Source: Bremerella sp. TYQ1 (GTDB lineage Bacteria > Planctomycetota > Planctomycetia > Pirellulales > Pirellulaceae). Taken from it: a DNA stretch of 64,000 bases. Each line of letters opens with the position of its first letter. The first letter of the stretch is position 1. Made by a program: the position numbers and the translations under genes. Shown one piece after another: positions 16,685 through 57,567 of this stretch. Below the pieces are notes generated by a model. The model was given only the letters and a program-made list of their open reading frames with translations, was not told where the DNA came from and did no database searches. Location of the stretch: positions 310,001-374,000 of the forward strand of contig NZ_CP083740.1 of the NCBI RefSeq assembly GCF_020150455.1, read 5' to 3'.

Positions 16685-19600
16685 TTAGCGACGGTACTGC
16701 TGCTGGGCAGGTTGTTGAGAATACTGCGACGGCTGCGGGTGGCGTTGCTGAGGCTGTGGTTGTTGCGGAGCCGGTTGCTGCGGATACCCCGGATACTGCG
16801 ACTGTTGTTGCGGCGGCATCGCTTGGTACTGCTGCTGTTGATAGTCGACCGGGCGAACTTCCACAGGCTGCATGATGGTCGGCCGCGGCTGGACGTTTTG
16901 TGGACGGCCCATGCCAGGCGGCTGCGATTGTGGCAGCAATTCGGTGCCTGACGGTCGTGGCAGCGGACCCCGCGGAGGATCAAGGATCGGAGCGTTGTAG
17001 CCCGGTGGAATGATCTCAGGAGTTCCCGATGGGTTGTCATCAGGGTGAATGGTGATGATGCCATCGTCCATCGGCATGGAAGGATCGATACCATACAGTG
17101 CTTCAGGGCCGTACACTTTGGCAACGTCAGCCAAGCACCAGCTCATGCGGCACATTTCCTGTTCTTTCAGGTAAGCCGCATCGGCGTCAGAGCGGACGAC
17201 CACTGGAGTGATGATGATTAGCAGTTCGCTACGCTGTGCGTTGTAGCTGTCGTAGCGGAACAGACGACCCAGCAGCGGCACGTCGCCGAGCAATGGAACC
17301 TGACGGTTGATGACTTCGTTCGAGTTCGAGATCAAACCGCCAAAGACAATCGTCTGTCCAGAGCGAGCACTGACCACGGCCGTAGCGGTTTGAGTATCGA
17401 TACGTGGCGAACGAATAACGTCACCATTTTCGTTGATCGAAATCGGGATGCCGTTTGCTTCGGAACCAACGGCCGAACGTTCGGCTTGAAGGGCCATCAC
17501 GACAACACCATCAGGGCTGATGCGTGGGGTGACGCTCAAGATGATACCGGTATTGATCAACTCTGTCGTGTTGATCGTACCGTTGTTGGTTTGTTGAGTC
17601 GAAGTAATGTAGGGAACACGTTCACCGACCTGAATAAAGCCAGGCTGGTTATCCATGGTCATGATTTGCGGACGAGCGAGCACTTCGAGTCGGCTTTCTC
17701 GTTCCAGTGCACGGACGAGAATATTGACCGATTCGCTGGCCGCGGAGAACACGAAACCACCATAGCCAAGATCGTTGTTCACACGTCCAAGGGCAAAGTT
17801 AGTTAGGCCTTGGCTACCAACGGCACTCGCGGTGGCCAAACTGGCCGCACTCGAGCTATTACCCAATGCCTGATTATTGAAGTTGTAGCCTGGGTCGAGC
17901 GAACCACTCGAAACGACGCTGCGGTCAAACAGCACCGAGTCTTGCAAGCCGAGCTCGAAACCGAGTTCTTCCAAGTCGTTCAGACGCACGTCCGCGATCA
18001 AGACTTGCAGCATGACCATCGGTGGGCGTTCGTCCAGTTCGCGGACGATTTCCAGAACTTGATCGAAGTATCGCGGTGTGGCACTGATGATCAGGCTGTT
18101 GCTGAACAATTCCGGCACAACGATCACTTCGCGAACCAATTGCTGGAAGGGGCTGACCACTGATGGATCGAGCGTTTGCAACTGGCTTTCTTCGGATAAC
18201 AATGCCGTCAAAGACTCTGCGACGAGGTCGGCCCGAGCGTTGCGTAGTCGAACGACGGTGCTTTTGCGTTCGGTGACTTCGTCTTGATCCAAGCGAAGCA
18301 AGATGGCTTCGACCACGGTCAGGTCACTTGCGGAACCAGAAGCGATAATGCTGTTCGTTCGCGTGTCGACAGTGAAGTTCAGTGGGATCAAACTCGATTC
18401 GCCGGAACTTGCTGCCTGTGGCGAGAAGAACGCGTTGGTCTGTCGGGCCTGGTTGTTGGCGGACTGAACGGTCTGGAACAATTCGTTGAGCATGGTCGAC
18501 AGCTGCGTCGCATCACCGTTGACGATGGTGAACACTTTAATCTGCGACTCAGCCGACGGCTGCGAATCGAGGTTCTTCACCAACGCAAGGATCAAGTCCA
18601 TGCTGTTTTCCGGGGCACGAATAATCAGGGCATTCGATCGCGTATCGGCGGTGACTTGAACTTCGTTCAAAATACCGGAACGTAAGATCTGCTTGCCTTC
18701 GGTGTCGAGCGTCATGAAAGAAAGCATGGCGGCACGAACTTGAGCACTCGATTGATTCTGCTGGTTACCGGTTCCTGTGGCAGGGGCGCCGGTGATCGCT
18801 TCCTGCAGGATCGGGGCCAGGTCTTCAGCGACCGAGTTGCGAAGCTGAACAATTTCGAGCTTGAGCGACGATTCGCTGGTCGGAACATCAATCTGCTTCA
18901 GCAGGTATTCGATCTCGACCATGTCGCGTGGGCTGGCCGAAACGATCAGCGAGTTCGAGCGAACATCGGAAGCAACGCGAATTCGCGTGCCCAGAGCCGT
19001 TGGGTCGGTATAGAATTCAGCGAGCTTCGTTTGGGCATCCGCTGCGGCTAGATTCTGCAGTGGGAAGACTCGCAGGGTTTTGGCTGGGCCCACGGGTTGA
19101 TCAAGCTTGTCGATCAATTCCAGAATGCCTTCAACACTTTGAGCACGGCCAATCACAAGGATCGCGTTCGGACGATTCAAAGCCGTGATGGTGACTTGAC
19201 CATAGCGGGCGTTGAGCAGGCTTTCGTAAAGTTCGTTAATCATCGTCGCGACTGCTTCACTGTTGGCGTGGAGCAATTCACGGACTTCAATGACCGGTTG
19301 GGTCTCGACGCTAAGTCGTTCGATGTCGTTGATGATATTGGTAATACGTTCGACGTCACGGCGGTGACCACGGACGACGATCACATCCAGACCTTCGAGG
19401 AATTCAATCTGAACTGGCCCGATCAGACCACCATCTTCTTCGGGGCTGATGGTGAACTGTGGATTGTTCGGATTGGGTTCGTCTGGAATGTCGATCGGCT
19501 GGCCATTTTGCGGCTGACCGATAATCTGGGCGGCGTTGTCATCTTCATCGACCGGAGGAGCTTCGGCTTCAGGCTGGAAGATCATCGCGGCCAGGTCACC

Positions 19601-20443
19601 ACTCCAGCGGAGCTTCTTTTTGTCAGCGACACCCTTCAACGCTTGAAAGACCTGACGTTTGGCCAGGCTGTTTTCAACGTCACGAAGCGGATCGAGTGCT
19701 TTTTCAACGGTATCTCGCGAGGCATTTCGCAAGGAAACGAGCGTGGTGCGATAAGCATCGCTGTGGGATGGGGTGTCGAGTGCGCGGATGACTTCGCCCC
19801 AGCTCTTCGCGGCATCTGACTCGCCACGGACGATTGCTGTTCCATCGTTGCGGTAAACTTGCAGACTGACTTTTTTGCCGGAGTTGGTTGGCAACGTCAT
19901 CATGACGAGAGCCCCTTCCGCCGAGATACTGACTGGCACGCGTTTGCCAACCAGTTTGACAATGCCAGACTCAAGGTTTTCGCCTTGCAAGTTTTTCAGC
20001 TGGATCTCAAGTTCGACCAGGCCGTCACCTAGATCTTTGGTTCGCTGAAACGTGGAAGCCGTAGGCATTGGCTTCGGTTCGGCAGGCTGGCGGCGAACGC
20101 GGAGCTCGGAACTGTTGGGTTCAGCTTTTTGTGGAGCCGATTGATAACCACTTCGTTCGATGAACTCTGCGATTTGCCCCTGGGTCGATTCCGGAGCGGT
20201 GACAAGTAGCTGTCCGGAGCCCGGGTCTGCGTGAATCGCCACGTTCGATTTCCCAGCAAACAGCTGCTTAAGCGAGTTGGAAAGTCCTTCCAACTTGCTT
20301 TGCTGAATGGGGTAAGAGCGTATTTTGACGCCGTCACCAGGTGCTTGGGCTTTGATCGGCGCCGAAAGGATACCGCTGAGAGCGACGACGAGCGTTGCTA
20401 TCAGTACACGTGATTTGGTTAATCGATCGAAGGGGCTGACCAT
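16685..20443 (-). CDS. gspD: Type II secretion-type secretin, cluster A, 1252 aa
   Basis: The product is nearly twice the usual 650-700 residues of GspD. A signal segment (VLIATLVVALSGILSAPIKA) is followed by several secretin N1-like domains, each with the 'R.NSLIV.A......I..L...LD.P' pattern (for example 'DVRSNSLIVSASPRDM', 'DTRSNALIIRAPENSM', 'DTRTNSIIASGSASDL'), then the beta-barrel secretin domain about 815-1105, ending in 'VPLLGDVPLLGRLFRYD' and 'SELLIIITPVVV'. The last 120 residues are Pro/Gln-rich and probably disordered. It forms the outer-membrane channel. The ATG follows GAGG. A terminator upstream (20618-20645) separates it from the preceding gene, so it may have its own promoter. 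Confidence 0.93.
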   Translation of the reverse strand: MVSPFDRLTKSRVLIATLVVALSGILSAPIKAQAPGDGVKIRSYPIQQSKLEGLSNSLKQLFAGKSNVAIHADPGSGQLLVTAPESTQGQIAEFIERSGYQSAPQKAEPNSSELRVRRQPAEPKPMPTASTFQRTKDLGDGLVELEIQLKNLQGENLESGIVKLVGKRVPVSISAEGALVMMTLPTNSGKKVSLQVYRNDGTAIVRGESDAAKSWGEVIRALDTPSHSDAYRTTLVSLRNASRDTVEKALDPLRDVENSLAKRQVFQALKGVADKKKLRWSGDLAAMIFQPEAEAPPVDEDDNAAQIIGQPQNGQPIDIPDEPNPNNPQFTISPEEDGGLIGPVQIEFLEGLDVIVVRGHRRDVERITNIINDIERLSVETQPVIEVRELLHANSEAVATMINELYESLLNARYGQVTITALNRPNAILVIGRAQSVEGILELIDKLDQPVGPAKTLRVFPLQNLAAADAQTKLAEFYTDPTALGTRIRVASDVRSNSLIVSASPRDMVEIEYLLKQIDVPTSESSLKLEIVQLRNSVAEDLAPILQEAITGAPATGTGNQQNQSSAQVRAAMLSFMTLDTEGKQILRSGILNEVQVTADTRSNALIIRAPENSMDLILALVKNLDSQPSAESQIKVFTIVNGDATQLSTMLNELFQTVQSANNQARQTNAFFSPQAASSGESSLIPLNFTVDTRTNSIIASGSASDLTVVEAILLRLDQDEVTERKSTVVRLRNARADLVAESLTALLSEESQLQTLDPSVVSPFQQLVREVIVVPELFSNSLIISATPRYFDQVLEIVRELDERPPMVMLQVLIADVRLNDLEELGFELGLQDSVLFDRSVVSSGSLDPGYNFNNQALGNSSSAASLATASAVGSQGLTNFALGRVNNDLGYGGFVFSAASESVNILVRALERESRLEVLARPQIMTMDNQPGFIQVGERVPYITSTQQTNNGTINTTELINTGIILSVTPRISPDGVVVMALQAERSAVGSEANGIPISINENGDVIRSPRIDTQTATAVVSARSGQTIVFGGLISNSNEVINRQVPLLGDVPLLGRLFRYDSYNAQRSELLIIITPVVVRSDADAAYLKEQEMCRMSWCLADVAKVYGPEALYGIDPSMPMDDGIITIHPDDNPSGTPEIIPPGYNAPILDPPRGPLPRPSGTELLPQSQPPGMGRPQNVQPRPTIMQPVEVRPVDYQQQQYQAMPPQQQSQYPGYPQQPAPQQPQPQQRHPQPSQYSQQPAQQQYRR

Positions 20444-20684: not shown

Positions 20685-21881
20685 TTAAAGTTCTCCGCCT
20701 GGGCCCATCGTCATGGCGTCAGCTAACGGCTGGCCGATGGAAAGAACACGTAGATCACCTTCGATCTCGATCACGACTTCGCGGTCCTTCACGTCAACGA
20801 CTTTACCCTTGAGCGTGCCGATCGAGAACGTATCGCCGGGGCCGAGTCGGAGCTGCTTGTTCTTGGGTCGATTGTTCAACCAGGCCTTGGGTTGGCCACC
20901 AACGGCAACGGTGCCGGTCAAGAAGGTGAACTTCGCTTCGTCAAATTCCGGGCGAGTAGGAGTCGGATCTCGCATTGGCTCTGGTTCCGGCTCGACGACT
21001 TTAACGATGAGCTCTTGTTTCGAGCTTTTCGGCGGTAGGCGACTGTCGCGTGCTTCGACGTTGATTTTGTATTCACCCAGCGCAGGCGGCGTCCACTGCA
21101 GTGTTCCACTTTCGGACAATTCGACTCCTTCCGGCGGGTTCTCTCCAAGGAAGAATGTCACTCGGTCCTTGCGATCAGGATCGTTGGCACTCAAACGATA
21201 GCGTAGCGGACGCTCGAGCTCGGCTTCGACTTCCGTTTTGGACGTGAATAGTGGGGGCTTGTTGGCTTGAGCGAATAGATTCCGCTGGACAATAACGTCG
21301 GCGTAATCCTTCAGGTTCCCGTGTGCGAGGGAATTCAAACGCACGTCCTCCGGATTCGGAACCTCTTCGGTTCCATCTACGCTAAGCACTGAAACGTTCA
21401 TCGAGATATCCAGCAGTTCTGAGTCCTTCACCGGCACCATGGTCAGCTTGGTAAACTTGTGCAGGATGTTGAAGGAGTAAAACTCGTAGGTGAACTGAAC
21501 GAGCTCCTCAAGGGTCGCACGCCCATTGATGCTGAACATATGCTGGTAATGGTTGCCACCGCGACGGCCGTTGAGCGGTTTGATCACCACATCATCGAAT
21601 CCTGTTGATTCGAGCGTTTCGCGCAGTCGCTCTTGATAGAACGAATGGCTGGCGCGTGTACTTTCGGGCAACGCATGCTGTCGGTAGGTCGCCAAGCGAT
21701 CCATTGCCGTGTTGGCTTTGTATTCGATGAACTCTTCATCTTTTAAACGCTTCGAAAGCGTATCGATCTGACGATCACGCGCCTTGAGTGCGTCGAAATA
21801 TTGATTCATAAAATAGTAGCCACCGACGCCGACCACACAGATACCGACGAGAATGGCCAAAACACGTTCGCGTTGAGTCAT
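20685..21881 (-). CDS. PilO/GspM-type protein fused to an Ig-like and a PilP/GspC-like domain
   Basis: The 398-residue protein starts with one membrane helix (VLAILVGICVVGVGGYYF), a coiled-coil (30-60) and a PilO-like periplasmic domain (65-175). After 'DVIVQRNLFAQ' (195-205), typical of the linker that opens GspC and PilP periplasmic domains, residues 221-297 resemble a He_PIG/cadherin-like Ig domain ('GVELSESGTLQWTPPALGEY'). Residues 316-385 ('LTGTVAVGGQPKAWLNN', 'LRLGPGDTF', 'KGKVVDVKDREVVIEIEG') look like the PilP/GspC homology region that contacts the secretin. It overlaps the gene before it by four bases. This fusion would explain why no separate gspC exists in the cluster. Confidence 0.82.
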   Translation of the reverse strand: MTQRERVLAILVGICVVGVGGYYFMNQYFDALKARDRQIDTLSKRLKDEEFIEYKANTAMDRLATYRQHALPESTRASHSFYQERLRETLESTGFDDVVIKPLNGRRGGNHYQHMFSINGRATLEELVQFTYEFYSFNILHKFTKLTMVPVKDSELLDISMNVSVLSVDGTEEVPNPEDVRLNSLAHGNLKDYADVIVQRNLFAQANKPPLFTSKTEVEAELERPLRYRLSANDPDRKDRVTFFLGENPPEGVELSESGTLQWTPPALGEYKINVEARDSRLPPKSSKQELIVKVVEPEPEPMRDPTPTRPEFDEAKFTFLTGTVAVGGQPKAWLNNRPKNKQLRLGPGDTFSIGTLKGKVVDVKDREVVIEIEGDLRVLSIGQPLADAMTMGPGGEL

Positions 21882-23491
21882 GACTGGTCTCCCGTGGTGC
21901 TAACAACGTCTGCTGCCGCATCGGCTGGAGCTTCTTCTGTTTTGTCCGTTTTCGGTTCGGTGGAAACCTCGGATGTTTCGTCCTTGGTTTCTGTGTCCTC
22001 TGCTTCAGGAGTCTCTGTTTCTTCAACTCTTGGAGCAAAGCGATCTGTACCATCTGGCGTGATGGTGACGTATTCCTGGAAACTGATGGAATAGGCCTCG
22101 CCGTAGGTTCGCTCCTGGGTTCCTTTCCCAAGGACGGCATGATTCTCGCCCATTAGGCTCGATTCTATCTTGCCGATGACAGATTGATCGGAAACGTAGC
22201 CTTCCAGGGCGGCAGTTCCACCTTGGTTGTTGGCCGGCTGCATATGAATTCGAGTGGTGATCATCTCGTCGGCCGAGGGTAATTTGTCCGACATTCGATA
22301 GAGCTCGTCGAGCCACTGAACGTCAGCGTTAACCCAGCTGTCGATTTCGAGCACTTCCTCTTCAAGTTCGACGAGAGGCTTATTCGATTTTTGAATTTTG
22401 GCGATGTCCTCTTTCAACTCAGTGATCTCCGCTTCGCGAGCTGAGATACCGCTGTAAAGAAGATAGACGGCGGCCACTACGACCGATGCAGCAGCAAGTC
22501 CGCCGAGAGCGAATATGCGTTTTCGATCAGGCGGATCAGGTTTGCGGCGTGGATTTAAGAAATCGATCTTCGCGTGATACGTGGAACCGTCAGCAAGCAA
22601 GATTCCAAGTAATCCACCAAACTGGCTGGCCGTTTCCGGGGCGACTTCAACCGTGCAGGAAACATGCTCCGCAGAAAACGGATCGAGAAACTCGACCGAT
22701 GCTTTCAGATCATCACCGAACGATCGCCAGATCTGAGGTTGTGTCGACTCACCCAAAATAACGATTTGCGAGATCGAATCTGATTTGATCTTGGTTTGGG
22801 CAGCAAGAATTGTTCGGCGGATTTCACCTTGAAGTGACTTGGTGAATTGTTCCGAATCTGCTTCGCCAGGGACTCGTGTCGATCGTGTGAGGATTACATT
22901 TCCGTCAGAAACGACGGTGAGCTCGGCACGGTCTTCGAGTATTTCGACCAGCAAAAACGCAGACGACGCAAGCTTCGATTGGGTCGCTGCAAGATGGGCA
23001 GCTCCGAATGATCGAACGTAAAAGCTCTCAGGCTGAAGTTGGGCCTGATCGCAGATCTTCTGGATCGACTTCAGATTCTTGGCGGAGATTGCCGCAGCAT
23101 GTACGCGTGCTTGCCCATCTTCGCTGGAGGGTAACTTGACGAAGTCGACCGTTCCGTCTTCGCCCAGGCTGGTACATTCCCTCATGGCCTGATATCGGAC
23201 GATGTCGGGAAGTTCGTCGTCTGGCACAGGAGGGACGGCGACAACTTGAAGCTCGATCGACGACCGACTGACGCCGACGATGGTCGGAAGTTTGCTCAAG
23301 CCGAGGGCCGACACTTGATCGGCGAGCAAACGGCCAACGCGGCTTTCCAGCGATGTGGTTTCGGTACCGTCTGGCGACGTGGTCAGAGGGAAATGGAATG
23401 CTTGTTCCACGGCAATACTCGAACCGCGCTGGCGTGCCACCAACATGCGGAGAGATCGCGAATCCCATTCAATTGCAAGTTTCTTAGCCAT
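21878..23491 (-). CDS. GspL-type protein (PilM-like ATPase fold fused to PilN-like part)
   Basis: The 537-residue product has a cytoplasmic actin-like PilM domain at 1-320 ('KLAIEWDSRSLRMLVARQRG', 'LPTIVGVSRSSIELQVV', 'DDELPDIVRYQAMRE'), one membrane helix about 345-368 (FALGGLAAASVVVAAVYLLY), a coiled-coil and a PilN-like periplasmic domain to about 490. The last 50 residues are a Glu/Thr/Pro-rich acidic tail that is probably disordered. In T2SS, GspL has this same topology and links the ATPase to the pseudopilus base. Start and stop overlap neighbours in the operon (four bases with the next gene). Confidence 0.88.
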   Translation of the reverse strand: MAKKLAIEWDSRSLRMLVARQRGSSIAVEQAFHFPLTTSPDGTETTSLESRVGRLLADQVSALGLSKLPTIVGVSRSSIELQVVAVPPVPDDELPDIVRYQAMRECTSLGEDGTVDFVKLPSSEDGQARVHAAAISAKNLKSIQKICDQAQLQPESFYVRSFGAAHLAATQSKLASSAFLLVEILEDRAELTVVSDGNVILTRSTRVPGEADSEQFTKSLQGEIRRTILAAQTKIKSDSISQIVILGESTQPQIWRSFGDDLKASVEFLDPFSAEHVSCTVEVAPETASQFGGLLGILLADGSTYHAKIDFLNPRRKPDPPDRKRIFALGGLAAASVVVAAVYLLYSGISAREAEITELKEDIAKIQKSNKPLVELEEEVLEIDSWVNADVQWLDELYRMSDKLPSADEMITTRIHMQPANNQGGTAALEGYVSDQSVIGKIESSLMGENHAVLGKGTQERTYGEAYSISFQEYVTITPDGTDRFAPRVEETETPEAEDTETKDETSEVSTEPKTDKTEEAPADAAADVVSTTGDQS

Positions 23492-23552: not shown

Positions 23553-25130
23553 TCAGTTGATTTGTCCGTCGTCGAGCCCGAGTTCAACACCTAGGACTTC
23601 CAAGGGATGCCCACGGCCTAATTCGGAAATGTCGCGCCACAACATGACTTTCGGTTGCGGCTGGGTTGCGTCGATGACAACTTCCTGTCTGCTAAAGGCA
23701 CTTCCATCTTCGAAGTAACCTACAACTTGTGCCCGGTACACATCGCCACCGGCACAGATAAACGGTGAGAGCGAACGCATTTGTTCCGTGGTGACAATGC
23801 CTCGCATCAAAATCCATGTTTCGTGTCGTGTGACAGGATCTTCGGGATCAGGCACTGGCAGGCGTTGCTCGAGTATTTGTCCAGCGATTTCTTCGTCCAT
23901 CCCTGGGATGCCAAGCAATATTTCGTAGGGAGCCTGATTGATGTTGATTCGCCCTGGAATGACCGGGGAAGGATTGATGGTCATGTTGTCCATAATGCTA
24001 GGCAAATAAACATTCATCGCGACGATGCTGTCCTCGAATGGCGACTGCATAGTGACGGTACGATTGCCTTGTTGGACTTGAACCGATGCGCCGATCAATT
24101 CCAACACGTTGCTGATCTGGGTTTGCCCTTCCTGCGAGAGATCGAGATTGACCGATCCGCCTCCGCCACCTCCACCGCTGTTGCCGCCACTGCTGCTCGA
24201 GCCGCCATAAATTCGGTAGGCGCAGATGAAGTCGGCGTATTCAGCGGGAAAGATGGCCGAGATGTTGTCATGAAGCGTCTGCAGGTCTTCTTCGTTGAGA
24301 AAGACTTTGGGTTGTCCCGTGTCGGAGTAATTCTTCTCCATGCTCACAAGCGTCAGATAGGAAGACCATCCGAGATCCGGCACAAGGTCCAACATTTCAG
24401 CCACTGCTGGGTCGCCATCCGGAGGTGGTGCCCATTCGTGATCGTCAACTAAGCCGTTTCGATTCGTGTCTCGACCGAAAAGGAGTTCAGGCGTTACGCC
24501 ACGCACGAGCAGTAACTCTCCGACGGTCTCCAATGGGCCATTTTTGGGATTGTAAGGAGGATCGAGCGTGTTGTAATAATCGAACTCTGCACCCAGTTCG
24601 CGCGGTTCGTCGTCTTCGTCCAGGTAGTCGAGAATGCAATCAGCAATCTCTTCATTCATGCCCGGCAAAGCCATGAGAAGGGATTGTCCAGAACCTTCCG
24701 ACTGCTCTTCGAGCATTAATAACGCGTTTAAATTGACTCGGCTCGATTCATCTTCCAAGCCGAAACGAATACCTTCGATAGAGCCGTCGACGTTAAGAGA
24801 TGGCGCTAGAATCGAAAACCTTCCACGCGAATCTGACGTATCGTCTGGATGAACCAAGATGCCGCGCATGATATCGGGGTTGTCGTAAATGCCCCCTTGT
24901 TCGGTAATCAGTTCCTGGTCTTGTTCCAGGAAGACCGAGAGCATTGCGATGCCGCTCTCCGCGACGTTGCGAGCTTGAATCTGCCGACCTGTTAGGTGAG
25001 TTGCTTTGTTCTCGATAAACATCAACTCGGTGTAGGCATACGCCGAGAGCGTGATCATCATGACAACGATGAGTACGATGAAAAGAACCGCTCCACGCTT
25101 CGGTCGACGGTGACCAGGCGAGACGCTCAT
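23553..25130 (-). CDS. gspK: Minor pseudopilin GspK, cluster A
   Basis: The 525-residue protein has a prepilin-type N-terminus (KRG then AVLFIVLIVVMMITLSAY) that lacks glutamate at +5, as is usual for GspK. It contains the large helical insertion of the family ('RVNLNALLMLEEQ', 'LLMALPGMNEEIADCILDYL', 'TVGELLLVRGVTPELLFG') and a helix-hairpin-helix-like stretch near the end ('IPGMDEEIAGQILEQRLP'). A Gly/Ser-rich insert (about 318-333) is extra. GspK caps the pseudopilus tip with GspI and GspJ. It is longer than most homologues (about 320-380). ATGA overlap with gspJ. Confidence 0.93.
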   Translation of the reverse strand: MSVSPGHRRPKRGAVLFIVLIVVMMITLSAYAYTELMFIENKATHLTGRQIQARNVAESGIAMLSVFLEQDQELITEQGGIYDNPDIMRGILVHPDDTSDSRGRFSILAPSLNVDGSIEGIRFGLEDESSRVNLNALLMLEEQSEGSGQSLLMALPGMNEEIADCILDYLDEDDEPRELGAEFDYYNTLDPPYNPKNGPLETVGELLLVRGVTPELLFGRDTNRNGLVDDHEWAPPPDGDPAVAEMLDLVPDLGWSSYLTLVSMEKNYSDTGQPKVFLNEEDLQTLHDNISAIFPAEYADFICAYRIYGGSSSSGGNSGGGGGGGSVNLDLSQEGQTQISNVLELIGASVQVQQGNRTVTMQSPFEDSIVAMNVYLPSIMDNMTINPSPVIPGRININQAPYEILLGIPGMDEEIAGQILEQRLPVPDPEDPVTRHETWILMRGIVTTEQMRSLSPFICAGGDVYRAQVVGYFEDGSAFSRQEVVIDATQPQPKVMLWRDISELGRGHPLEVLGVELGLDDGQIN

Positions 25131-26104
25131 AGGGCGGCCTCCTCGGTTAATGTGTCGGTCGATTCTTCCTCTTCTTCCTCGTACGGTTTGGCGGTCGGGA
25201 TGCGGATCAATCGGCGAAAAATCTGGCCGACGGGATTGCCTGTTTCGTCCACAGGAACTTCGACTGCTCCGTCAGAAAGAAGGGCCTGGGTTGTGTCGTG
25301 ATCTCGAATGGCAATGATGACATCGACTGCCATGGGGAGACATCCCATCGCCTCGGAATCCCATTCTTCCAGCCACTGAAACCCATCGAAATAACGAAAC
25401 TGCAGAAGCGAGATTTCCGGGGCAAGGATCTCCGCGGAAGCATCAAGTCCGGCCGTATCCCCTTCATTCAAAGCGTACTGCGTTACCGCACGATCGAGTT
25501 CACGTCGAACCAAACCAAATTGCGTTTCCGTGATACCGGCATCGCCAACGGTGCCATGCCCAAGCGAAGAAACGCCTGGTTGAAGCAGGAAATAGGTGAC
25601 GGTTTTGATATCGCTAGGAATATCGCCAATCGCACGATCTCGAAAGCTCGTGTACTGCGGGTCATACTCATCGATTCGCGGGATACGGCTGATATCGACT
25701 TGAAGCTCCATCGCGTTGCCATATAAGCCAATCGTGGTTGGCAGCACGCTTGATGCAGCAAGCTCTTGGGTGTTTGAGCCTGCGATTGCGTCTTCCGCCA
25801 TAGTGGGATCGATCCCCGCACTCGCGGCCAAGTCTCCGGCGCCTCCCGCTAAGCTGTCGGCAGCCAGCGTTTCCACAGCGGAGAAATCGATTTCGTTTTT
25901 CCAGATCGCGCTTTGCAGATCGGTTTCCATGCGGCGCATGATCGAACGAGCCAGTTGAGCTTGTTCGATACTTGTTTGGCTTTCGGTCACCTGAAAAAGG
26001 TAAAACTGGACCGCTCCGCCGACCGCCAATAAAACCAGCACAGATAGCGAGGAAGCCAAGATGACTTCCAACAGTGTAAAACCGTTTCGTGAAGAGTCAC
26101 GCAT
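25127..26104 (-). CDS. gspJ: Minor pseudopilin GspJ, cluster A
   Basis: The 325-residue protein begins with a prepilin peptidase site (RNG^FTLLEVILASSLSVLVLL, Glu at +5), followed by 'EQAQLARSIMRRMETDLQSA', the characteristic helix of GspJ. The C-terminal part includes the family's 'LEFRYFDG..W..EWDS' type element ('SLLQFRYFDGFQWLEEWDS'). An Ala/Ser-rich insert at about 70-120 and an acidic C-terminal tail make it longer than the typical 200 residues. It forms the tip complex with GspI and GspK; the genes overlap (one base with gspI, four with gspK). Confidence 0.92.
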   Translation of the reverse strand: MRDSSRNGFTLLEVILASSLSVLVLLAVGGAVQFYLFQVTESQTSIEQAQLARSIMRRMETDLQSAIWKNEIDFSAVETLAADSLAGGAGDLAASAGIDPTMAEDAIAGSNTQELAASSVLPTTIGLYGNAMELQVDISRIPRIDEYDPQYTSFRDRAIGDIPSDIKTVTYFLLQPGVSSLGHGTVGDAGITETQFGLVRRELDRAVTQYALNEGDTAGLDASAEILAPEISLLQFRYFDGFQWLEEWDSEAMGCLPMAVDVIIAIRDHDTTQALLSDGAVEVPVDETGNPVGQIFRRLIRIPTAKPYEEEEEESTDTLTEEAAL

Positions 26105-27246: not shown

Positions 27247-27380
27247 GGATTGATTGCAGCGAACTCTGGCTATCTCAATACGGCAAGGGCCATGGCCACG
27301 GCCTTGCAGACAACATCGCTTCGATGCATGCCCACGCGGTCGTGGGCATGGCACCCACTTAGTCAATCACCACCGGAAGA
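27247..27380. repeat. Palindromic element between gspG and gspH
   Basis: This 134-base gap inside an otherwise tightly packed operon contains a perfect 10-bp inverted repeat with four-base loop (CATGCCCACG at 27327-27336, CGTGGGCATG at 27341-27350) and, next to it, a weaker palindrome around GCAAGG...CCTTGC (27286-27306 region) with GGCCATGGCC-like core. The CCCACG/CGTGGG unit followed by GCACCC resembles short palindromic repeats I know from planctomycete genomes. On the minus strand there is no T-run, so it is not a standard terminator; it may be an mRNA processing or stability element. Confidence 0.6.
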
Positions 27381-38093: not shown

Positions 38094-38097
<4 letters not shown>

Positions 38098-47697: not shown

Positions 47698-49389
47698 ATG
47701 GCAGGACGGCTAGGTGACATTCTGGTAGCTCGCGGGCACATCACTCAGGAACAACTGGAAGGTGCGCTCCGCAGCCAAGGTTCCGAGCGAGGTATGCTCG
47801 GCGCCATTCTGCTGCGCCGCGGCTTGGTGACTCGCGAACAAGTCGGCTCGGCATTGGCAGAGCAGTTTGAAGTGCCGTTCGAGACGATTGTGCCAGAGGC
47901 GGTCAACCCGCAGTTGGTGCGATTGTTACCGGAAGAGTTCGCCCGCAGCCGCAGTACCGTGCCTGTCGGGCTGGCCAAACGAAGATTGCGCCTGGCCATG
48001 GCGGCGCCGGACGATATCGAAACGATTTCTGAAGCGGAATTGATCACCGGTTATCCGGTCGACCCAATCGTGAGTTTCGGCGCGGACATTCAGGACACGC
48101 TCGATCGTGGTTTCGACGACAAAATTGTCGCACGTCAGACCATCGTCGATATGAAGCTGCAGGAACTTGCTCAGCATCAAGATGTCGACGACGAAGCGGA
48201 ACAGATTGCCGCGCTCAACGAAGAAGAAGCAGCTCCCGTTGTTCGCCTGGTGAAATCGCTTTTGTCAGGGGCGATTAACTCGAGCTCCAGCGATATTCAC
48301 TTGGAACCGCACAAGCCAGAAATGCGGGTGCGGTATCGTGTCGATGGGCAACTCCAGCAAGTGATGACCATTCCTAATCACATTGAAGAAGCGGTGATCG
48401 CGCGTATCAAAGTGATGGGAGACATGGACACCACTGAAACGCGGCGTCCGCAAGATGGGCACATCAGCATTGAGGATGGCGGCAAGAACGTCAACTTCCG
48501 TGTGAGCACCATTCCGACCGTGTTGGGCGAAAAAGTGGTGATGCGTTTGATCGACGAAAGCTCGAAGGTGTTCCGTATGGATCAGCTCGGCTTCAGCGAT
48601 GTCGATAGCCACCGTTTGCAGGAACTGATCGACAAGCCACACGGAATGCTGGTCGTTACCGGGCCAACTGGTTCGGGGAAATCGACGACGCTTTACGCGA
48701 TGCTTTCAGAGCTGAACCAGGTACACCGCAACATTGTCACCGTTGAAGACCCTGTCGAGTACCGTTTGCCAGGCATCACTCAGGTTCACTCCGATAACGA
48801 ATTTGGTCTCGGGTTTGCCAACGCTTTGAAGTACATCATGCGGCAAGACCCCGACGTGATCATGGTGGGTGAAATTCGCGATCATGAAACGGCAACCACG
48901 GCTGTGCAAGCCGCACTCACAGGGCACTTGCTGATCAGTACGCTGCACACCAACGACGCTGTCGGTTCCGTCGCGCGACTGAATGACTTGGGAATTGACC
49001 ACTTTCGGATCGGTGGTTCGCTGCTGGGAAGTGTGGCTCAACGATTGTTGCGGACGATCTGTCCGTTCTGCAAAGAACCGGCTCAACCGAATCAAACGAT
49101 GCTCGAGACAATCTCGCGTCGCTGTCGCATTCCAACTGATGCGGTGTTTTACCATGGCCGCGGCTGCAACAAGTGCCTCGGTAGTGGCTATCAAGGACGT
49201 GTTCCGGTCTTTGAAATTATGGTCAACACGCACCGTATGGCCGAAGCGATTGATCAGGGAATGCCCCAAGCAAAGCTACGCGAATTGGCGGTTGAAGAAG
49301 GAATGACCGACCTGCTGACGGCTGGGGTTCGGATGGCAGTGGCCGGACGAACGACCCTGGAAGAAGCCTACTTCAAGACGATGGGTTAA
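47698..49389 (+). CDS. GspE/PilB-type assembly ATPase, cluster B
   Basis: The 563-residue protein has an MshEN-type N-terminal half ('LGDILVARGHITQEQLEGAL', 'LAMAAPDDIETISEAELITG'), Walker A GPTGSGKS at 322-329, Asp box 'VTVEDPVEYRLPGITQ', Walker B 'DPDVIMVGEIRDHETA', His box 'STLHTND' and a tetracysteine zinc site ('CPFCKEP', 'CNKCLGSGY'). All catalytic elements are intact. It is clearly related to but distinct from the cluster A ATPase, so the two clusters are not a recent duplication. First of a set of nine genes on the plus strand. Confidence 0.95.
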   Translation: MAGRLGDILVARGHITQEQLEGALRSQGSERGMLGAILLRRGLVTREQVGSALAEQFEVPFETIVPEAVNPQLVRLLPEEFARSRSTVPVGLAKRRLRLAMAAPDDIETISEAELITGYPVDPIVSFGADIQDTLDRGFDDKIVARQTIVDMKLQELAQHQDVDDEAEQIAALNEEEAAPVVRLVKSLLSGAINSSSSDIHLEPHKPEMRVRYRVDGQLQQVMTIPNHIEEAVIARIKVMGDMDTTETRRPQDGHISIEDGGKNVNFRVSTIPTVLGEKVVMRLIDESSKVFRMDQLGFSDVDSHRLQELIDKPHGMLVVTGPTGSGKSTTLYAMLSELNQVHRNIVTVEDPVEYRLPGITQVHSDNEFGLGFANALKYIMRQDPDVIMVGEIRDHETATTAVQAALTGHLLISTLHTNDAVGSVARLNDLGIDHFRIGGSLLGSVAQRLLRTICPFCKEPAQPNQTMLETISRRCRIPTDAVFYHGRGCNKCLGSGYQGRVPVFEIMVNTHRMAEAIDQGMPQAKLRELAVEEGMTDLLTAGVRMAVAGRTTLEEAYFKTMG

Positions 49390-49398: not shown

Positions 49399-50541
49399 AT
49401 GAAAGCGAATACCTTGCCGAGCCGATCGAAGTCAGGCGGAATCGTCGGGCTACTACAGTGGCTGCACTCCATTCAACTGACGCCTGGGCGCAAGAAACAA
49501 GGCCTTTCGCCGAGACGTGTCGGCGAGATCTTTTCGCACTTGGCGACGCTGCTGGAAAATGGCGTGACGCTGCCGAAAGCCATTTTGACGATCGCCAACG
49601 AATCGTCGATGCGTTGGGGGCGACCGCTGCTGAAATCATTGCATAGTGCGATTGAACGTGGTGATAGCTTCTCGAAGGCATTGGCCCGCGAAGAAGGCAT
49701 GATCGACGAGATTGTGATTCAGCAAATTCGTATTGGTGAACGATCAGGCAACGTGCCGCAGGTGCTGAGACGCATCGCCGATAAGATGGAATCGGACAAC
49801 GATCTACGGGGACGGATCATCAAAAAGATCAGCTACCCGGCGATTGTGACGATTGCCGGTAGCGGCGTTTGCGCGTTCATGATCTTGTTCATTTTGCCGG
49901 TCTTCGAAGAGACGTATCGCAAGTCGAAGATTCCTTTGCCGTTGCCAACTCAGGTATTGGTGAGTGTCGGGCACTTCGCCACATCGTACGGATGGATCGT
50001 CTTGCTGGCCATTTTGGCGGCCGGATTGATCGTGCGACAAATCCGACGGAATCGACCGATGGCGATTGCCATGGATCAGCGAATGCTGCGGTTGCCGTTG
50101 ATTGGCCCATGGCTGGTCGACATGGCGATGTTGCAGTTTATGGAAGCGTTGGGAACGATGCTGGAAAGTGGCTTTCACCTGGCCGATGCCCTGACGCAGT
50201 GCCAAGGAACGGTTGGCAATTTGGCTGTCGATCGAGCGATTGGCTCGTTGGGAAGCGCAGTTCGCCGCGGCGAACGACTTAGTCGCGAGATGGAACGCCA
50301 CCAGCAACTGTTTCCGCCGGTGGTCAGTCAATTGGTGATTGTCGGCGAACAGACCGGCAACTTGGGGCCAGCGAGCCGCCAGGTGCGCGATCACTTGAAG
50401 AAAGACATCGAACGAAAGACCGATAGTTTCGTGCGTGTCGTTGAACCGGTCACAACGATCTTGATGGCGTTGCTGGTCGGAGGGATTTTGTTAGCGATCT
50501 ACATGCCAATGTTTGGAATGTTGGATCTTGTTGAGAAGTAG
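49399..50541 (+). CDS. GspF/PilC-type platform protein, cluster B
   Basis: The 380-residue protein has two T2SSF repeats ('IFSHLATLLENGVTLPKAIL' and 'QFMEALGTMLESGFHLADAL') with three membrane helices (about 150-175, 190-215, 350-375). It lacks the N-terminal 60-residue 'ARNLQG' segment that cluster A GspF has, and starts with a basic stretch instead. It lies nine bases after the ATPase gene, so the two are translationally linked, as in other T2SS/T4P clusters. Confidence 0.94.
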   Translation: MKANTLPSRSKSGGIVGLLQWLHSIQLTPGRKKQGLSPRRVGEIFSHLATLLENGVTLPKAILTIANESSMRWGRPLLKSLHSAIERGDSFSKALAREEGMIDEIVIQQIRIGERSGNVPQVLRRIADKMESDNDLRGRIIKKISYPAIVTIAGSGVCAFMILFILPVFEETYRKSKIPLPLPTQVLVSVGHFATSYGWIVLLAILAAGLIVRQIRRNRPMAIAMDQRMLRLPLIGPWLVDMAMLQFMEALGTMLESGFHLADALTQCQGTVGNLAVDRAIGSLGSAVRRGERLSREMERHQQLFPPVVSQLVIVGEQTGNLGPASRQVRDHLKKDIERKTDSFVRVVEPVTTILMALLVGGILLAIYMPMFGMLDLVEK

Positions 50542-52966: not shown

Positions 52967-54484
52967 ATGAAAACAAAACGCATTTCCAAGAAGAACGATC
53001 ATCGCCCGGTCCTGGCTTTGCAGATCGGTCACACCAAAGTTCGTGCGGTGCTATATCGCATTGAAGATGGCAGCTTGTGCGAGTGTGAGTCGCTGGAAGA
53101 GTCGTGGCAAGAAGGGCATTGGAAGATCCACAGCGAAGATGGCATGGATGGCCTGAAGTCCGCGTTGCGAAGACTCCTCGCGCGGACACCACGCGGCATT
53201 GACGAAGCGTATGTGGCACTCTCGGGCGAATTCTGCGTGACGCGGGTCGTGAGCGATACCAACGAGAACGTCGCCTACGAAGTCCGTGAGATCGAATCGC
53301 GTAGCAATCTCTATCTTTCGCTCGGACATGGGCCGAAGGTAGTCGCCGGGAATATCTTGCAGCAAGATCCGAAGCATCAACATGCGACCGTTTCGGTTGT
53401 CCATCGACAAACGATCGAAGCGATTTTGGAAGTCGCCAAAGGTGTCGGTCTGACGATTACTGCGATCGAACCGACCGTGATTTCGCTGTGCCGCTTGCTG
53501 GGGGCATTGCGGCTCGATCGCGAAGCTCCTGCACTGCTGGTTTGCCCTGGACAGTCTGGCGTCGAGATCGCAATCTCGTATCAAGGGCGGTTGTACCTCG
53601 ACTATCGTCCGGCCGGGATCACTCAGCAGGAAGAGATCGCTGAGATTCTGGTTCATCACTTGGAACGGCTGCAGCGTTATTGCCGCCGCCATGCTCGAGT
53701 GATGCAAAGTGCAATTGGTTCGGTCTACTTGACCGGCGAACGGCGCCGTGCGGAAGCGATTCAAGCTCAGCTAGGCGGCCGCCTCAGAATGCCGGTCGAA
53801 ATATTACAAATGGAAGGGAGCGGCAACGAGATTGCTTCGCTACTGCGAAACCTGCCGATCTCGCATTTTCCAGCCGCAGGCGTCGGATTGTTGGCGGTGC
53901 GTGAATATGCCACGCCGGGACCAAACTTGATGGAACGGCTGCATGCCGACTACGAAGAACCACTCTTCACGCGAACGCTTAAAGTGCTCGGTCCCTTGGC
54001 GGCTGTTGTCCTGATTGCCGCGATGGTGTGGGGATATTTGTGGGAACAACGGTGGGAACTGCAGCAGGCAATGGCGCAAGCGGCCGAGTTGGAACCGATT
54101 CACCGCGAATCGATCTTGCTGCGTGGCGTGATGAAGCAAAACCGCGAAACGTTGAATGCCCATCAGCAAGTTGGTAAGCAGTTGCCGCTTCGGCCGGTGG
54201 CTCGGTGGATCGAAAAGATCGGTCAGGCCGTTCCGGACGATGCATGGCTGACAAACGTGTCCCTGGATGACGAAGGTGACCTGACCATCGAAGGGAATAC
54301 GACCAACGAGGCGAGCATCTTTGCCTACGGCGAAGAGGTGGGGCAATTCGACTTCGTGCATCGAGCCACCGTCGACGGTGCCGTTCCGTCGAATACGAAG
54401 TCGGGACCGGCGATCAAGTTCACCATTCACTGTGACATTGACGATTGGGAAGAGTTGGAGGATCAAGACGATGGCAGCATCTAG
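52967..54484 (+). CDS. PilM/PilN-type fusion (GspL role), cluster B
   Basis: The 505-residue protein starts with an actin-like PilM domain ('VLALQIGHTKVRAVLYRIED', 'GIDEAYVALSGEFCVTRVV', 'VVHRQTIEAILEVAKGVGLT', 'LLVCPGQSGVEIAISYQG'), then one membrane helix about 345-362 (GPLAAVVLIAAMVWGYLW), a coiled-coil and a PilN-like domain ('WIEKIGQAVPDDAWLTNVSL'). Both clusters therefore use a single GspL-like protein instead of separate PilM and PilN. The start overlaps nothing (seven bases from the previous stop), and its end overlaps the PilO-like gene by 14 bases. Confidence 0.88.
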   Translation: MKTKRISKKNDHRPVLALQIGHTKVRAVLYRIEDGSLCECESLEESWQEGHWKIHSEDGMDGLKSALRRLLARTPRGIDEAYVALSGEFCVTRVVSDTNENVAYEVREIESRSNLYLSLGHGPKVVAGNILQQDPKHQHATVSVVHRQTIEAILEVAKGVGLTITAIEPTVISLCRLLGALRLDREAPALLVCPGQSGVEIAISYQGRLYLDYRPAGITQQEEIAEILVHHLERLQRYCRRHARVMQSAIGSVYLTGERRRAEAIQAQLGGRLRMPVEILQMEGSGNEIASLLRNLPISHFPAAGVGLLAVREYATPGPNLMERLHADYEEPLFTRTLKVLGPLAAVVLIAAMVWGYLWEQRWELQQAMAQAAELEPIHRESILLRGVMKQNRETLNAHQQVGKQLPLRPVARWIEKIGQAVPDDAWLTNVSLDDEGDLTIEGNTTNEASIFAYGEEVGQFDFVHRATVDGAVPSNTKSGPAIKFTIHCDIDDWEELEDQDDGSI

Positions 54485-55115
54485 TGAATCGGTTCTCCGC
54501 CTTTTGAGGCATCCACACGCTTTGATGGTCGGCATAATCGTAACTTTTGTGGTAGCACTTGTGACGCTTATTCCGGCCGCCGATGAATATTCGGCATTAC
54601 GAGAACGATCGGAGGAAGTCGCGCGCCTGCTAGAGCAGGGAACCAACGACCGTGACGGACTAGCTTTGATCCAAGCCAAACATGCCGAAATTCAGGAGAC
54701 GCTCAATCAGCATCAAGAGCGAGCCATCGACGAAGATCGAGCTCACGAGGTTCGCCAGTCGCTGGTTCATTTTGCTCGGGGATCGAATTGCCACTTACGG
54801 CGAGTTGATCTTGGCCCGGTGCGTGTTCGTCACTGGCACGAACAGGATCATCCTGTGCAAGCCGTTTCGACCGCCAAGCGAGGCAAGAAGACTGACTTCC
54901 GCTTGGAAGTTCGCGAACTTCGCCTGACGATGACCGGCGAGATGCACGAGATTGAGAGTTTTCTGGAGAAGTTCGAGACGCTGGATGTTCAAATGAACTT
55001 GCAGCAAATGAACCTGCGAGCGTTGGATGCCAACGGCGACCAGGTTCAACTGGAACTAACGCTGCAATTGTTTGGAGTTCGTCGTGCCAAGCAGGATGAA
55101 TCGTTGAAGTCCTGA
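54471..55115 (+). CDS. PilO/GspM-type protein, cluster B
   Basis: The ATG at 54471 is preceded by GGAGG and overlaps the upstream gene by 14 bases; the longer frame from 54321 is only an overlap artefact. The 214-residue protein has a membrane helix (about 19-38, LMVGIIVTFVVALVTLIPAA), a coiled-coil (44-85) and a PilO-like ferredoxin-type domain ('FRLEVRELRLTMTGEMHEIE', 'SFLEKFETLDVQMNLQQMNL'). Unlike the cluster A homologue it has no Ig or PilP extension. It should dimerise with the PilN part of the preceding gene product. Confidence 0.86.
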   Translation: MAASSESVLRLLRHPHALMVGIIVTFVVALVTLIPAADEYSALRERSEEVARLLEQGTNDRDGLALIQAKHAEIQETLNQHQERAIDEDRAHEVRQSLVHFARGSNCHLRRVDLGPVRVRHWHEQDHPVQAVSTAKRGKKTDFRLEVRELRLTMTGEMHEIESFLEKFETLDVQMNLQQMNLRALDANGDQVQLELTLQLFGVRRAKQDESLKS

Positions 55116-55174: not shown

Positions 55175-57094
55175 ATGTCACAACGCCAGGATGGCCTAAA
55201 AAACGCAAACTCCTCGATCGCCAGATCGCTTTGCCCTCGGCTTAGCGTCTGTCTGCTGCGCGGCGGTTTGCTGTGGGCTATCGCAATGGTTTGCCTCGGC
55301 GTCGGTGTTGGTCATGTTTCTGCCGAAGGCATCAGTCCCCGCATTCAATCTGCTTTGAAGCAGCGCGGAGATTTGACGCTGCGAGAAACAAGCCTGCCGC
55401 ATGCACTGCAAACAATCAGCGAGATTTGGAACATCAACGTCGTGATGGGAAGCAAAGTGGAAGGGACCATCAACGGAACCTTCCGCGACGCCCCGCTGTA
55501 CGACATTCTCGATTCGATACTGCTGCTCAACGGCTATGGCTACCGCCCCGTCGGCGATAGTCTGGTGATCGTTCCGCAAACCGAACTGGGAACGGCCAAT
55601 CCCATGTTTCGTTCCGAGACGATTCCGCTGAAACATGCCAGTGCCGTAGAGATTATCCCTGCGCTGGAGTCCCTTCGCTCGCGGGGTGGATCGATTCAGG
55701 CGATTGCTTCGGCGAATAGCCTGGCAGTGGTTGACTATCCCCATCACGTTCAGATGATTCGGGAAGCGGTTGCCAATATTGATCGCGTTGCCGCTGCATC
55801 TGGTGCCGCCCCTGGCACGCGGATCATTACTGACGTGCTCAATTTTCGGCCTGAATATATCGACGCGAAAAGCTTGCTGGAAGCGATCCAGTCGTTGATT
55901 AGCGCCGATGGGCGTGCGGCGGTCGTAGACTCCGAGAACCAAGTCATCGTCATCGATCGACCAGAGAACCTGCGAATGATCGAGAGCATGCTGCGGCGGT
56001 TGGACGTGCCGAAACCGCAAGTTCGCATTACGGCGCTGATCTACGATATCGACTTGGACGACATGGAAAATCTGGGCGTGAACTGGAGCACGTTCTTCAA
56101 AGGGCGAACGCTGGCAGACGGCACGACCGAGAACCTCTTCGGGATCGAGTCGGCGATTGCGATTCCTGCGGCGGCAAGCGATCCGACTGGGGTGATGACG
56201 TTTCAAACGCTGAGCAGCGGGTTCGACTTGAAGGCGGTGATTGACGCCGTCCGGCAAATGGACGACTCTCGTTTACTCGCGGATCCGAACGTGGTCGTGG
56301 TGGACCGAGAAAGAGCGCTGATTCAGATCGTTACTGAAATTCCCTATCAGCAGCTGACGCAGACGTCGGCAGGGGGCAACATCGGGACCACTGCGTTTCG
56401 AGAAGCAGGCGTCATGCTGACGGTGACTCCTCGAATTGCCGCGGACGGGACAATCGAAATGGATGTGGTGCCGACGTTCAGCCGGCTAACAGGTTTTAGC
56501 GAAGGCCCTAACCGTCAGCCAATTATTGATAAGCGAGAAACGAGCACCACCGTGCGTGTCGCCGATGGCCAAGTGTTGGTAATCGGTGGTCTTCGTCAGC
56601 GAATCGATATCAGCAACGACAATGGGATTCCTTACTTGAAGGATCTCAAGTATGTCGGCAAGCTGTTTCGCTATCGCAGCACTCAGGTTCGGGAAAGTGA
56701 ACTGGTCGTCTTTCTGCGAACCGAAATTCTGCCGTTCCCGACACAAGACTTGAACTGCCGACAAATCGATGCGTACGAAGAAAGCTATGCCAAGTTGGAC
56801 GCGGTCCCACAGGCATCGCAGTACCCTTGGCCCAAGCTAAGTCCGCCACCGCCAGGCAAGCGGCCGACATCTTTCGGACCAGATCCCCGGCGGCAATTGG
56901 CTCCAGGGGCAGTTCCACCGCAAGGCATGCCTCCCCACGGAATCGCGCCGCAGGGGATGCCGCCTCAAGCGATGCCAGAAGGGGGCTATCAGGTTCCGCC
57001 GCAAATGATGCACGAGGAACCGATTCAATCGCCGTCCCAACAGATGCCGGTATACGAATCGCACGTGATTCGGCGATTTCCGATGGTGCGTTAG
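55175..57094 (+). CDS. Secretin, cluster B, 639 aa
   Basis: The protein has a signal region (LLWAIAMVCLGVGVGHVSAE, about 31-51), an N0/STN domain ('LRETSLPHALQTISEIWNIN', 65-130), N1-type domains ('SANSLAVVDYPHHVQMIREA', 'SENQVIVIDRPENLRMIESM') and a complete secretin domain (about 290-530; 'GVMLTVTPRIAADGTIEMDV', 'NGIPYLKDLKYVGKLFRYRS', 'SELVVFLRTEIL'). The last 90 residues are Pro/Met/Gln-rich with 'PQGMPPHGIAPQGMPPQ' repeats. Size is normal for PilQ/GspD, half that of cluster A. Its stop interleaves with that of the convergent gene (TTAG, 57091-57094). Confidence 0.94.
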   Translation: MSQRQDGLKNANSSIARSLCPRLSVCLLRGGLLWAIAMVCLGVGVGHVSAEGISPRIQSALKQRGDLTLRETSLPHALQTISEIWNINVVMGSKVEGTINGTFRDAPLYDILDSILLLNGYGYRPVGDSLVIVPQTELGTANPMFRSETIPLKHASAVEIIPALESLRSRGGSIQAIASANSLAVVDYPHHVQMIREAVANIDRVAAASGAAPGTRIITDVLNFRPEYIDAKSLLEAIQSLISADGRAAVVDSENQVIVIDRPENLRMIESMLRRLDVPKPQVRITALIYDIDLDDMENLGVNWSTFFKGRTLADGTTENLFGIESAIAIPAAASDPTGVMTFQTLSSGFDLKAVIDAVRQMDDSRLLADPNVVVVDRERALIQIVTEIPYQQLTQTSAGGNIGTTAFREAGVMLTVTPRIAADGTIEMDVVPTFSRLTGFSEGPNRQPIIDKRETSTTVRVADGQVLVIGGLRQRIDISNDNGIPYLKDLKYVGKLFRYRSTQVRESELVVFLRTEILPFPTQDLNCRQIDAYEESYAKLDAVPQASQYPWPKLSPPPPGKRPTSFGPDPRRQLAPGAVPPQGMPPHGIAPQGMPPQAMPEGGYQVPPQMMHEEPIQSPSQQMPVYESHVIRRFPMVR

Positions 57095-57567
57095 TTCAGC
57101 TGCAGCGTGATCTGTTCCAAGCCGCGGCGTAGCGTTGCCTGCGAGTCGGTAACGCTCAGGACTTCCCATTGCAGAACAAAGTCGCCGACGACGGCCCGTT
57201 GAAAGTCGCCGTTAGCCTCTAGAAGAGCAAACGGTTGATCGCCACGCTTGGCAATGCCGAGCAAGCGAATGTCGGCGGTCTGGGCTTGTTGCGGGGTGAC
57301 GGTACGCGTTTTGACGGTGGGTGGCCGAAACGGATTGCGAGGGGACGAAGCGTTCTCGTTCGCCGCGACGGTAGGACTTTCGGCGGCGATGTCTATCGTA
57401 TCCACGGGCGGAGGCGTTTCTTTCTCGCTAAGCGGTGCGGCGTCGCGGTTGTCGGCGCTGGCAACTTGCTGGGCAGGAACGGTCTGATCTGCGGCACACC
57501 CGGCGATGACAGCCAGTGTGGTCAGGAGCAGGGCAAAAGCCAGCGGTAAAGTGATCGTCCGGAACAT
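57091..57567 (-). CDS. PilP-like lipoprotein converging on cluster B
   Basis: The 158-residue protein has a lipobox (LAVIAGC, Cys about 23), a disordered linker and a C-terminal domain from about 75 starting 'SPRNPFRPPTVKTRT', then 'DIRLLGIAKRGDQPFALLEA' and 'VGDFVLQWEVLSVTDSQATL', which match the RNPF-linker and homology region of PilP/GspC proteins. These bind the secretin N0 domain and connect it to PilO. Here the gene faces the cluster, so it must have its own promoter. The gap upstream (57568-57698) shows nothing notable. Confidence 0.78.
   Translation of the reverse strand: MFRTITLPLAFALLLTTLAVIAGCAADQTVPAQQVASADNRDAAPLSEKETPPPVDTIDIAAESPTVAANENASSPRNPFRPPTVKTRTVTPQQAQTADIRLLGIAKRGDQPFALLEANGDFQRAVVGDFVLQWEVLSVTDSQATLRRGLEQITLQLN

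Follow-up and report, generated by a model that had tools for sequence, protein, structure and literature searches.

A poreless secretin-N protein beside a type II secretion-type operon in Bremerella sp. TYQ1: a possible two-chain secretin in planctomycetes

A type II secretion-type operon and its poreless neighbour

In the planctomycete Bremerella sp. TYQ1, a stretch of 64,000 nucleotides (hereafter the window; positions 310001-374000 of a 6.66-Mb, single-contig genome) contains two gene clusters related to type II secretion systems (T2SS) and type IV pili (T4P), called A and B below. Between them, on the strand of cluster A, lies a gene missing from the earlier feature listing, whose 1141-amino-acid (aa) product, termed N-only, carries the N domains of a secretin and has no match to the secretin pore. 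An earlier note, made from the letters of this DNA, had described both clusters; all the open reading frames it named are indeed open, and cluster A was recovered as a T2SS-type operon with a 1252-aa secretin (A_D). Gene starts were assigned by a simple script and some of them are uncertain. On the minus strand, cluster A is ordered E-F-G-H-I-J-K-PilM/N-PilO/P-secretin-lipoprotein; its features and those of its surroundings are as follows.

38094..41519, minus strand: N-only, 1141 aa; start resembling a signal peptide (by eye), then a helical region (38-191), an N0 domain (242-331), seven N domains within 347-1077 and a Gly-rich tail
32150..33445, plus strand: multi-EF-hand protein between N-only and the A ATPase
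31091..31819, minus strand: protein with a sub-threshold LTXXQ match, upstream of the A ATPase
29100..30818, minus strand: A ATPase, GspE/PilB-type, T2SSE and MshEN domains
27853..29058, minus strand: A platform protein GspF, T2SSF
27381..27791, minus strand: A major pseudopilin GspG, T2SSG
26587..27366, minus strand: A pseudopilin, H position; start possibly 27246
26104..26583, minus strand: A pseudopilin, I position
25127..26104, minus strand: A pseudopilin, J position; T2SSJ and N_methyl matches below cut-off
23553..25130, minus strand: A GspK, T2SSK_1st
21878..23491, minus strand: A PilM/N (GspL-like) fusion; PilM Pfam match below cut-off, profile match to PilM (2ych, E 7e-20)
20685..21881, minus strand: A PilO/P-like fusion with Ig-like insert; PilO match weak (E 0.03)
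16685..20443, minus strand: A_D secretin, 1252 aa; six clear N domains and at most two weak ones, pore at 895-1089, N0 absent by sequence
15527..16657, minus strand: lipoprotein-like gene 3' of secretin A, with homologues behind the secretin in a number of relatives

Cluster A is best explained as a planctomycete version of the T2SS, as suggested by curated protein models. GspG scores 100 bits against NCBIfam gspG (TIGR01710; cut-off 88.85), and GspK 66 bits against T2SSK_1st (cut-off 26.2), with a match to 5vtm (E 6e-5). The ATPase and the secretin fall narrowly below their cut-offs (624.3 bits for gspE, cut-off 630.25; 345.6 bits for GspD, cut-off 351.35) and the platform protein falls below its own (372.8 bits for GspF, cut-off 424), each having the T2SS model as its top-scoring one; the best PDB matches of the ATPase are PilB proteins. 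By Pfam, the pseudopilin genes include N_methyl proteins, and A_D has six Secretin_N stretches followed by the pore domain. No match to GspC (HR domain) was found in cluster A. As to the PilO/P fusion proposed in the earlier note, its profile leads weakly to PilO (E 0.029), it additionally has an Ig-like stretch scoring near He_PIG, below the cut-off, and its higher-scoring matches, short alignments to designed Pizza propellers, were disregarded. Given this weak PilO match only, a GspC or PilP identity was dropped. Naming the system after the ten-gene T2SS operon of Planctopirus limnophila, Plim_0410-0401, as described in passages of PMC10632474, was likewise abandoned, the likeness being one of gene number (ten genes from E to D in both).

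In N-only, Pfam recognizes five Secretin_N stretches and no pore, while domain hidden Markov models (HMMs) built in this analysis, with N domains counted at i-Evalue < 0.01, delineate one GspD-like N0 and seven N domains. The same architecture extends to its family: Secretin_N was found in 20/20 members and the N0 family PF21305 in 12/20 at E up to 1 (the window copy being below the N0 cut-off), and our HMM detected N0 in 120/120 family proteins listed. The pore PF00263 was listed by Pfam for 0/20 members and was found by our HMM in 0/120 of those listed. An AlphaFold model of N-only (mean predicted local distance difference test, pLDDT, 67.7) led, by structure search, to XcpQ, PulD and an isolated GspD N0 domain. 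In this model the helical region precedes N0; an LTXXQ family match occurs in 4/20 homologues, and a similar match in the small protein just upstream of the A ATPase. The nearest named homologue, from Bremerella volcania, is 90% identical across the searched region.

Two N-only paralogues, par1 and par2, with N0 and N domains and no pore, are encoded elsewhere in the genome (809 and 951 aa from the script starts, in open frames of 877 and 1082 aa). EF-hand genes occur at most 5 kb from all three copies (window 32150-33445; L084 11253-12854; L085 11587-13035), one of them, near a sigma-70 gene, coding for a zinc-finger protein that resembles an anti-sigma factor, and a DUF1559/N_methyl pilin-like gene is found near par1 (L084 6977-8065).

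Linkage of N-only to system A and fused giant secretins

The distribution of N-only was surveyed in 60 genomes, the host genome included, with kinship uncorrected and co-occurrence cut-offs picked after inspection of the data. The N-only family (E < 1e-30) was found in 49/49 genomes with an A-type ATPase and in 1/11 without it; with a cut-off above the paralogue level, these counts become 42/49 and 0/11. Using the secretin as a marker, N-only occurs in 47/47 positive and 3/13 negative genomes, and these three, which are incomplete or fragmented assemblies, do have the A ATPase. The link is weakened by the stricter count based on the secretin and strengthened by the count based on the ATPase. 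In a second family of the same class (f21), N-only is present in 27/27 A-positive genomes. A second A-type ATPase was found in 11/49 genomes.

Gene order points in the same direction. Among the matches listed, for which N-only rows were hand-picked as the best per genome and contig, 31/60 A-type ATPase genes have N-only within 13 kb upstream on the same strand. It lies directly upstream, with gaps of ~40-160 bp, in for example G010, G014, G095 and G220, and in G014 and G220 it still adjoins the ATPase though the secretin gene is far away. The second A-type system is accompanied in G015 by a poreless protein of 3639 aa and in G020 by one of 2547 aa; each has the ends of the 1141-aa form and is expanded internally.

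Outside the class, N0, N domains and pore are found on one chain. A search with the A_D profile in 244 genomes of the phylum identified secretins in open frames of 2431-5073 aa in 13 genomes outside the class (order and class names, namely Pirellulales, Planctomycetales-like and Phycisphaerae, were inferred from kinship labels and named database relatives). Seven of these giants were read, each being one open reading frame with N0, 35-50 N domains and a pore, in chains of up to 5016 aa. When six of the seven were re-read in longer surroundings, five had a homologue of the A-type GspK upstream on the same strand, some together with PilM/N, PilO/P, J, G or F; the G248 giant has only a PilM/N-like gene, 17 kb upstream. 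In the six N-complete giants tested, N0 and the first N domain of N-only map best to the extreme start, and the last N domain and pore of A_D to the extreme end, the middle N domains mapping to no consistent place.

A protein database search with a 4822-aa giant as query passed 416 of 1275 scored candidates. All 120 giants listed have the pore, and N0, present in 113, precedes every N domain; their median length is 4738 aa and their median number of N domains 46, with maxima of 5812 aa and 61 domains. As the search admitted 0.55-1.75 times the query length, these medians describe that length range, and some records are partial. In databases, these proteins are named hypothetical protein, secretin N-terminal domain-containing protein, type II secretion system protein D and similar. 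Among the titles and abstract beginnings listed from the open-licence PMC literature, a scope outside which most subscription papers fall, none describes poreless or giant planctomycete secretins.

Collectively, co-occurrence, gene order and fusion make it the best reading of these sequences that N-only belongs to system A.

A putative extendable periplasmic channel and competing explanations

Secretin N domains build rings. We propose, with a probability only slightly better than even (about 0.55), that system A contains an extendable periplasmic channel made of two chains, N-only and A_D, in Planctomycetia and of one giant chain elsewhere. The ATPase, platform and pseudopilins (E, F, G-K, PilM/N and PilO/P) would drive export through the long secretin A_D. 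The N0 and the approximately seven N domains of N-only would stack as rings beneath A_D, with N0 docking the inner-membrane platform, so that N-only would make the channel long enough to span a wide periplasm. Other planctomycete classes have these parts in a single chain, within which the number of rings would rise to 35-50 or more. At ~30 Å per ring (our own estimate), the span would be about 45 nm for ~15 rings and about 140 nm for 46. While the sequence, domains, predicted folds, gene order, co-occurrence and fusion are observed, ring stacking, contact between N-only and A_D, bridging and the nature of the substrates are inferred from them.

The T2SS secretins GspD, PulD and XcpQ share with N-only and A_D the fold and weak sequence similarity of N0 and N domains. 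In contrast to GspD-type secretins, N0 and extra N domains are here carried by a second, poreless chain, and the fused relatives have 35-50 N domains (at most 61 among those listed). Stacking of N-only under A_D is suggested by analogy with Thermus thermophilus PilQ, a secretin with extra stacked N rings. According to passages of PMC5745081, this 757-aa protein forms six rings, is 350 Å long, ranks among the largest characterised secretins and spans a wide periplasm. PilQ differs in having only six rings, all on one chain, whereas N-only and A_D would together supply ~14-16; for the giants listed, the median count of N domains is 46.

Several observations weigh against this proposal. The AlphaFold model of N-only has a predicted template modelling (pTM) score of 0.28 and a mean pLDDT of 67.7, which give low confidence in its domain arrangement. 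Among the matches listed, 29/60 A ATPases have no linked N-only: 20 have none on the contig, and in nine it is far or differently placed, including in the single-contig genomes G027, G041, G042, G052 and G059. In 8/47 A-positive genomes (G020, G024, G035, G037, G040, G045, G050 and G056), the best N-only match only reaches the level of the host's paralogues, so that the score does not identify an A-linked orthologue in them, though G037 and G020 have a giant form beside A. The absence of a separate N-only gene from genomes with giants was observed only within the 32-49 kb around six giant genes. Finally, the 134-237 domain of A_D is ambiguous in structure and falls within some of the XcpQ N012 alignments, and in the second family 23/27 A_D proteins read also carry N0, which places N0 on both chains.

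The division of N0 between the two chains was considered in its own right. In the host's order, N0 was detected by sequence in 0/21 A_D proteins (0/15 by Pfam). A simple hand-over, in which A_D lost N0 and N-only has it, was nevertheless rejected, since the f21 secretins mostly keep N0 and the 134-237 domain is ambiguous; it holds in the host's order, by sequence only. Of the two A-type secretins encoded by genome G232 (L114, L115), only one has N0.

With a clearly lower probability than the channel, N-only could be made of secretin N domains and yet lie outside the channel wall, serving system A in the periplasm as a scaffold, assembly factor or regulator, in the manner of GspB/ExeAB or a pilotin-like partner. 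N0 on both chains in f21 would agree with such a role, as would the helical region ahead of N0 and the two paralogues, neither of which stands beside secretin, ATPase or platform genes; the EF-hand genes within 5 kb of all three copies may in addition point to a calcium-linked or general envelope function. However, if N-only lies outside the channel, the single-chain order from N0 to pore in other classes is hard to explain. It is still less probable that one T2SS and one T4P system came to lie close by chance, with N-only as an incidental neighbour. Such an account fits the relationship between A and B: the B PilM/N gene is patchy (19/60 genomes, including a weak match in G009), it shows no association with the A-type secretin (E < 1e-60, 47/60 genomes; Fisher p 0.52), and in no genome outside the genus was it seen 70 kb or less from an A secretin of the same contig, several pairs being on separate contigs so that their distance is undefined. 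It does not fit N-only, as co-occurrence, the upstream same-strand position and fusion argue against chance.

That A and B together form a single machine, for instance with a B fibre leaving through A structures, is highly improbable. In its favour, the two secretins of G001, G002 and G006 lie ~36 kb apart on opposite strands as in the window. Yet neither cluster lacks an ATPase, a platform or a secretin of its own, and A occurs without B in 31/60 genomes and B without A in 3/60; this lack of association led us to drop it. The channel made of N-only and A_D is the preferred explanation. If true, one chain of a secretin could carry the pore and another only rings, and the ring count could grow from a few in model bacteria to dozens; the ring numbers that planctomycetes present naturally (about 6-8, about 15, 35-50 and up to 61) would then allow secretin length to be tested against periplasm width.

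System A is also a candidate for the crateriform structures of planctomycetes. Passages of PMC5394234 describe those of P. limnophila as "enigmatic" outer-membrane complexes, ~100 per cell, of which at least some join the cell membrane and which sometimes carry 12-nm pili-like fibres. The same passages give them no molecular identity, and the link to system A is hypothetical. It is an unlikely extension of the proposal that these structures have as their trans-periplasmic core N-only with A_D, and likewise the single-chain secretins of up to 61 N domains. Such channels would be far taller than any secretin characterised, and ring number would serve as a ruler for an unusually wide periplasm. 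The proposal itself, if true, would provide candidate genes for the structures that tie planctomycete membranes together.

Cluster B and other filament-type loci of the genome

Cluster B, on the plus strand, is ordered receiver-E-F-five pilins-PilM/N-PilO-secretin; the ATPase, platform, five pilin-like genes, PilM/N fusion, open reading frame in the PilO position and 639-aa secretin reported previously were all retrieved.

47282..47671, plus strand: receiver-only response regulator heading cluster B
47698..49389, plus strand: B ATPase, PilB-like by score, T2SSE and MshEN domains
49399..50541, plus strand: B platform, T2SSF
50594-50992, 50999-51505, 51620-52045, 52035-52550 and 52540-52959, plus strand: five B pilin-like genes
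52967..54484, plus strand: B PilM/N fusion with PilN domain
54321..55115, plus strand: B PilO-position gene; start likely 54561; no Pfam match
55175..57094, plus strand: B secretin, 639 aa; two Secretin_N, pore, sub-threshold N0/STN
57091..57567, minus strand (opposite to cluster B): 158-aa lipoprotein-like gene 3' of the B secretin

Cluster B is best explained as an independent pilus or pseudopilus system, apparently more T4P-like and headed by a receiver-only gene. The top-scoring models are PilB for the ATPase (544.8 bits, cut-off 675.65) and PilQ for the secretin (217.8 bits, cut-off 284.35), both scores being below the type IVa pilus cut-offs. Three of the pilin-like proteins are above the N_methyl cut-off, the product of 51620-52045 is just under it (20.5 versus 21.2 bits), and the fifth has only a sub-threshold PilX_N match (16.4 versus 25.5 bits). 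No second T2SSE gene that could encode the retraction ATPase PilT is present inside the cluster, although such a gene may lie elsewhere. The product of 57091-57567 has what we take to be a PilP-like look; this identity was dropped as no database match was obtained.

The paired proteins of A and B are 34% (ATPases), 27% (platforms) and 28% (secretins) identical, which bears out the view of the earlier note that the clusters are distinct and not recent copies. The ATPase phylogeny it had called for succeeded in part. A tree of 21 ATPases separates A and B into two planctomycete clades, each with 100/100 support, and the A clade groups weakly (82/89) with a PilB-like pair of the same genome; as the backbone is unresolved, neither is placed firmly among GspE or PilB, and naming the systems from this tree was dropped. 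Such intermediate gene sets recall the generic type IV filament systems of Denise et al. (2019), which, in passages of PMC6668835, combine mixed genes and fit no class well. The word stem "planctomycet" has no occurrence in that paper.

Decay of one cluster in all relatives, which would have spoken against the earlier note, was seen in two congeners only. B is deleted in G004 and G005, both of which keep an intact B_G and the latter a 47-aa stub of the platform gene B_F, but it is present in G001, and its PilM/N was found in G002, G006, G007 and G008. The leftover major-pilin genes, pilins without a machine, lie at L064 16356-16682 (G005) and L083 9552-9878 (G004) and are 83% and 66% identical. 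In other genera, eight B clusters were read. Seven keep the gene order, receiver first, with gaps: G and K are uncalled in G028, the secretin is off the contig in G022, and the ATPase frame is split in G042, where a ~1.1-kb stretch interrupts it (L232 4950-7751). The eighth, in G019, is partial and has no receiver in the stretch read. Since A and B form separate clades, show no association and B was lost in two congeners, they are two independent systems which lie together in this genus, their proximity being a genus-level arrangement. That they serve different substrates, or that one of them makes a fibre, is plausible.

Genome-wide, 15 T2SSE-family matches (14 above cut-off), seven secretin matches and four Peptidase_A24 (prepilin peptidase) matches were found; the statement that most bacteria have one T2SS is therefore too narrow a yardstick for this host. 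As the earlier note had stated, no prepilin peptidase lies within the window. Three of the Peptidase_A24 matches, near 0.67, 1.05 and 6.44 Mb, are each at most ~11 kb from a T2SSE-family ATPase and a secretin, in loci which are probably Tad-like, and the fourth, at 2.456 Mb, is away from both gene types. At 6.60 Mb (L024 6494-11442), two PilB-like ATPases flank a shorter, 366-aa T2SSE protein (6.6066 Mb), PilT-like by size and position, together with platform and pilin-like genes and no nearby secretin match. In a 1356-aa protein (L025 4087-8157), the match to the secretin pore is weak and split, and hardly any N domains can be recognised.

An ABC-2 transporter trio (window 57699-62564) adjoins cluster B; portions of this trio are also present close to B in G028 and G042, and close to N-only in G009. 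At 1.87-1.89 Mb (L022 8852-13998, L023 6174-12658) lies a third system with a secretin. At its head are genes for a kinase-like protein, a receiver and a STAS-domain protein; PilM and PilN are separate, and unrelated genes are interspersed. Receiver genes lie directly 5' of type IV filament ATPases both in cluster B (47282-47671) and in a cluster C (L022 10288-10689).

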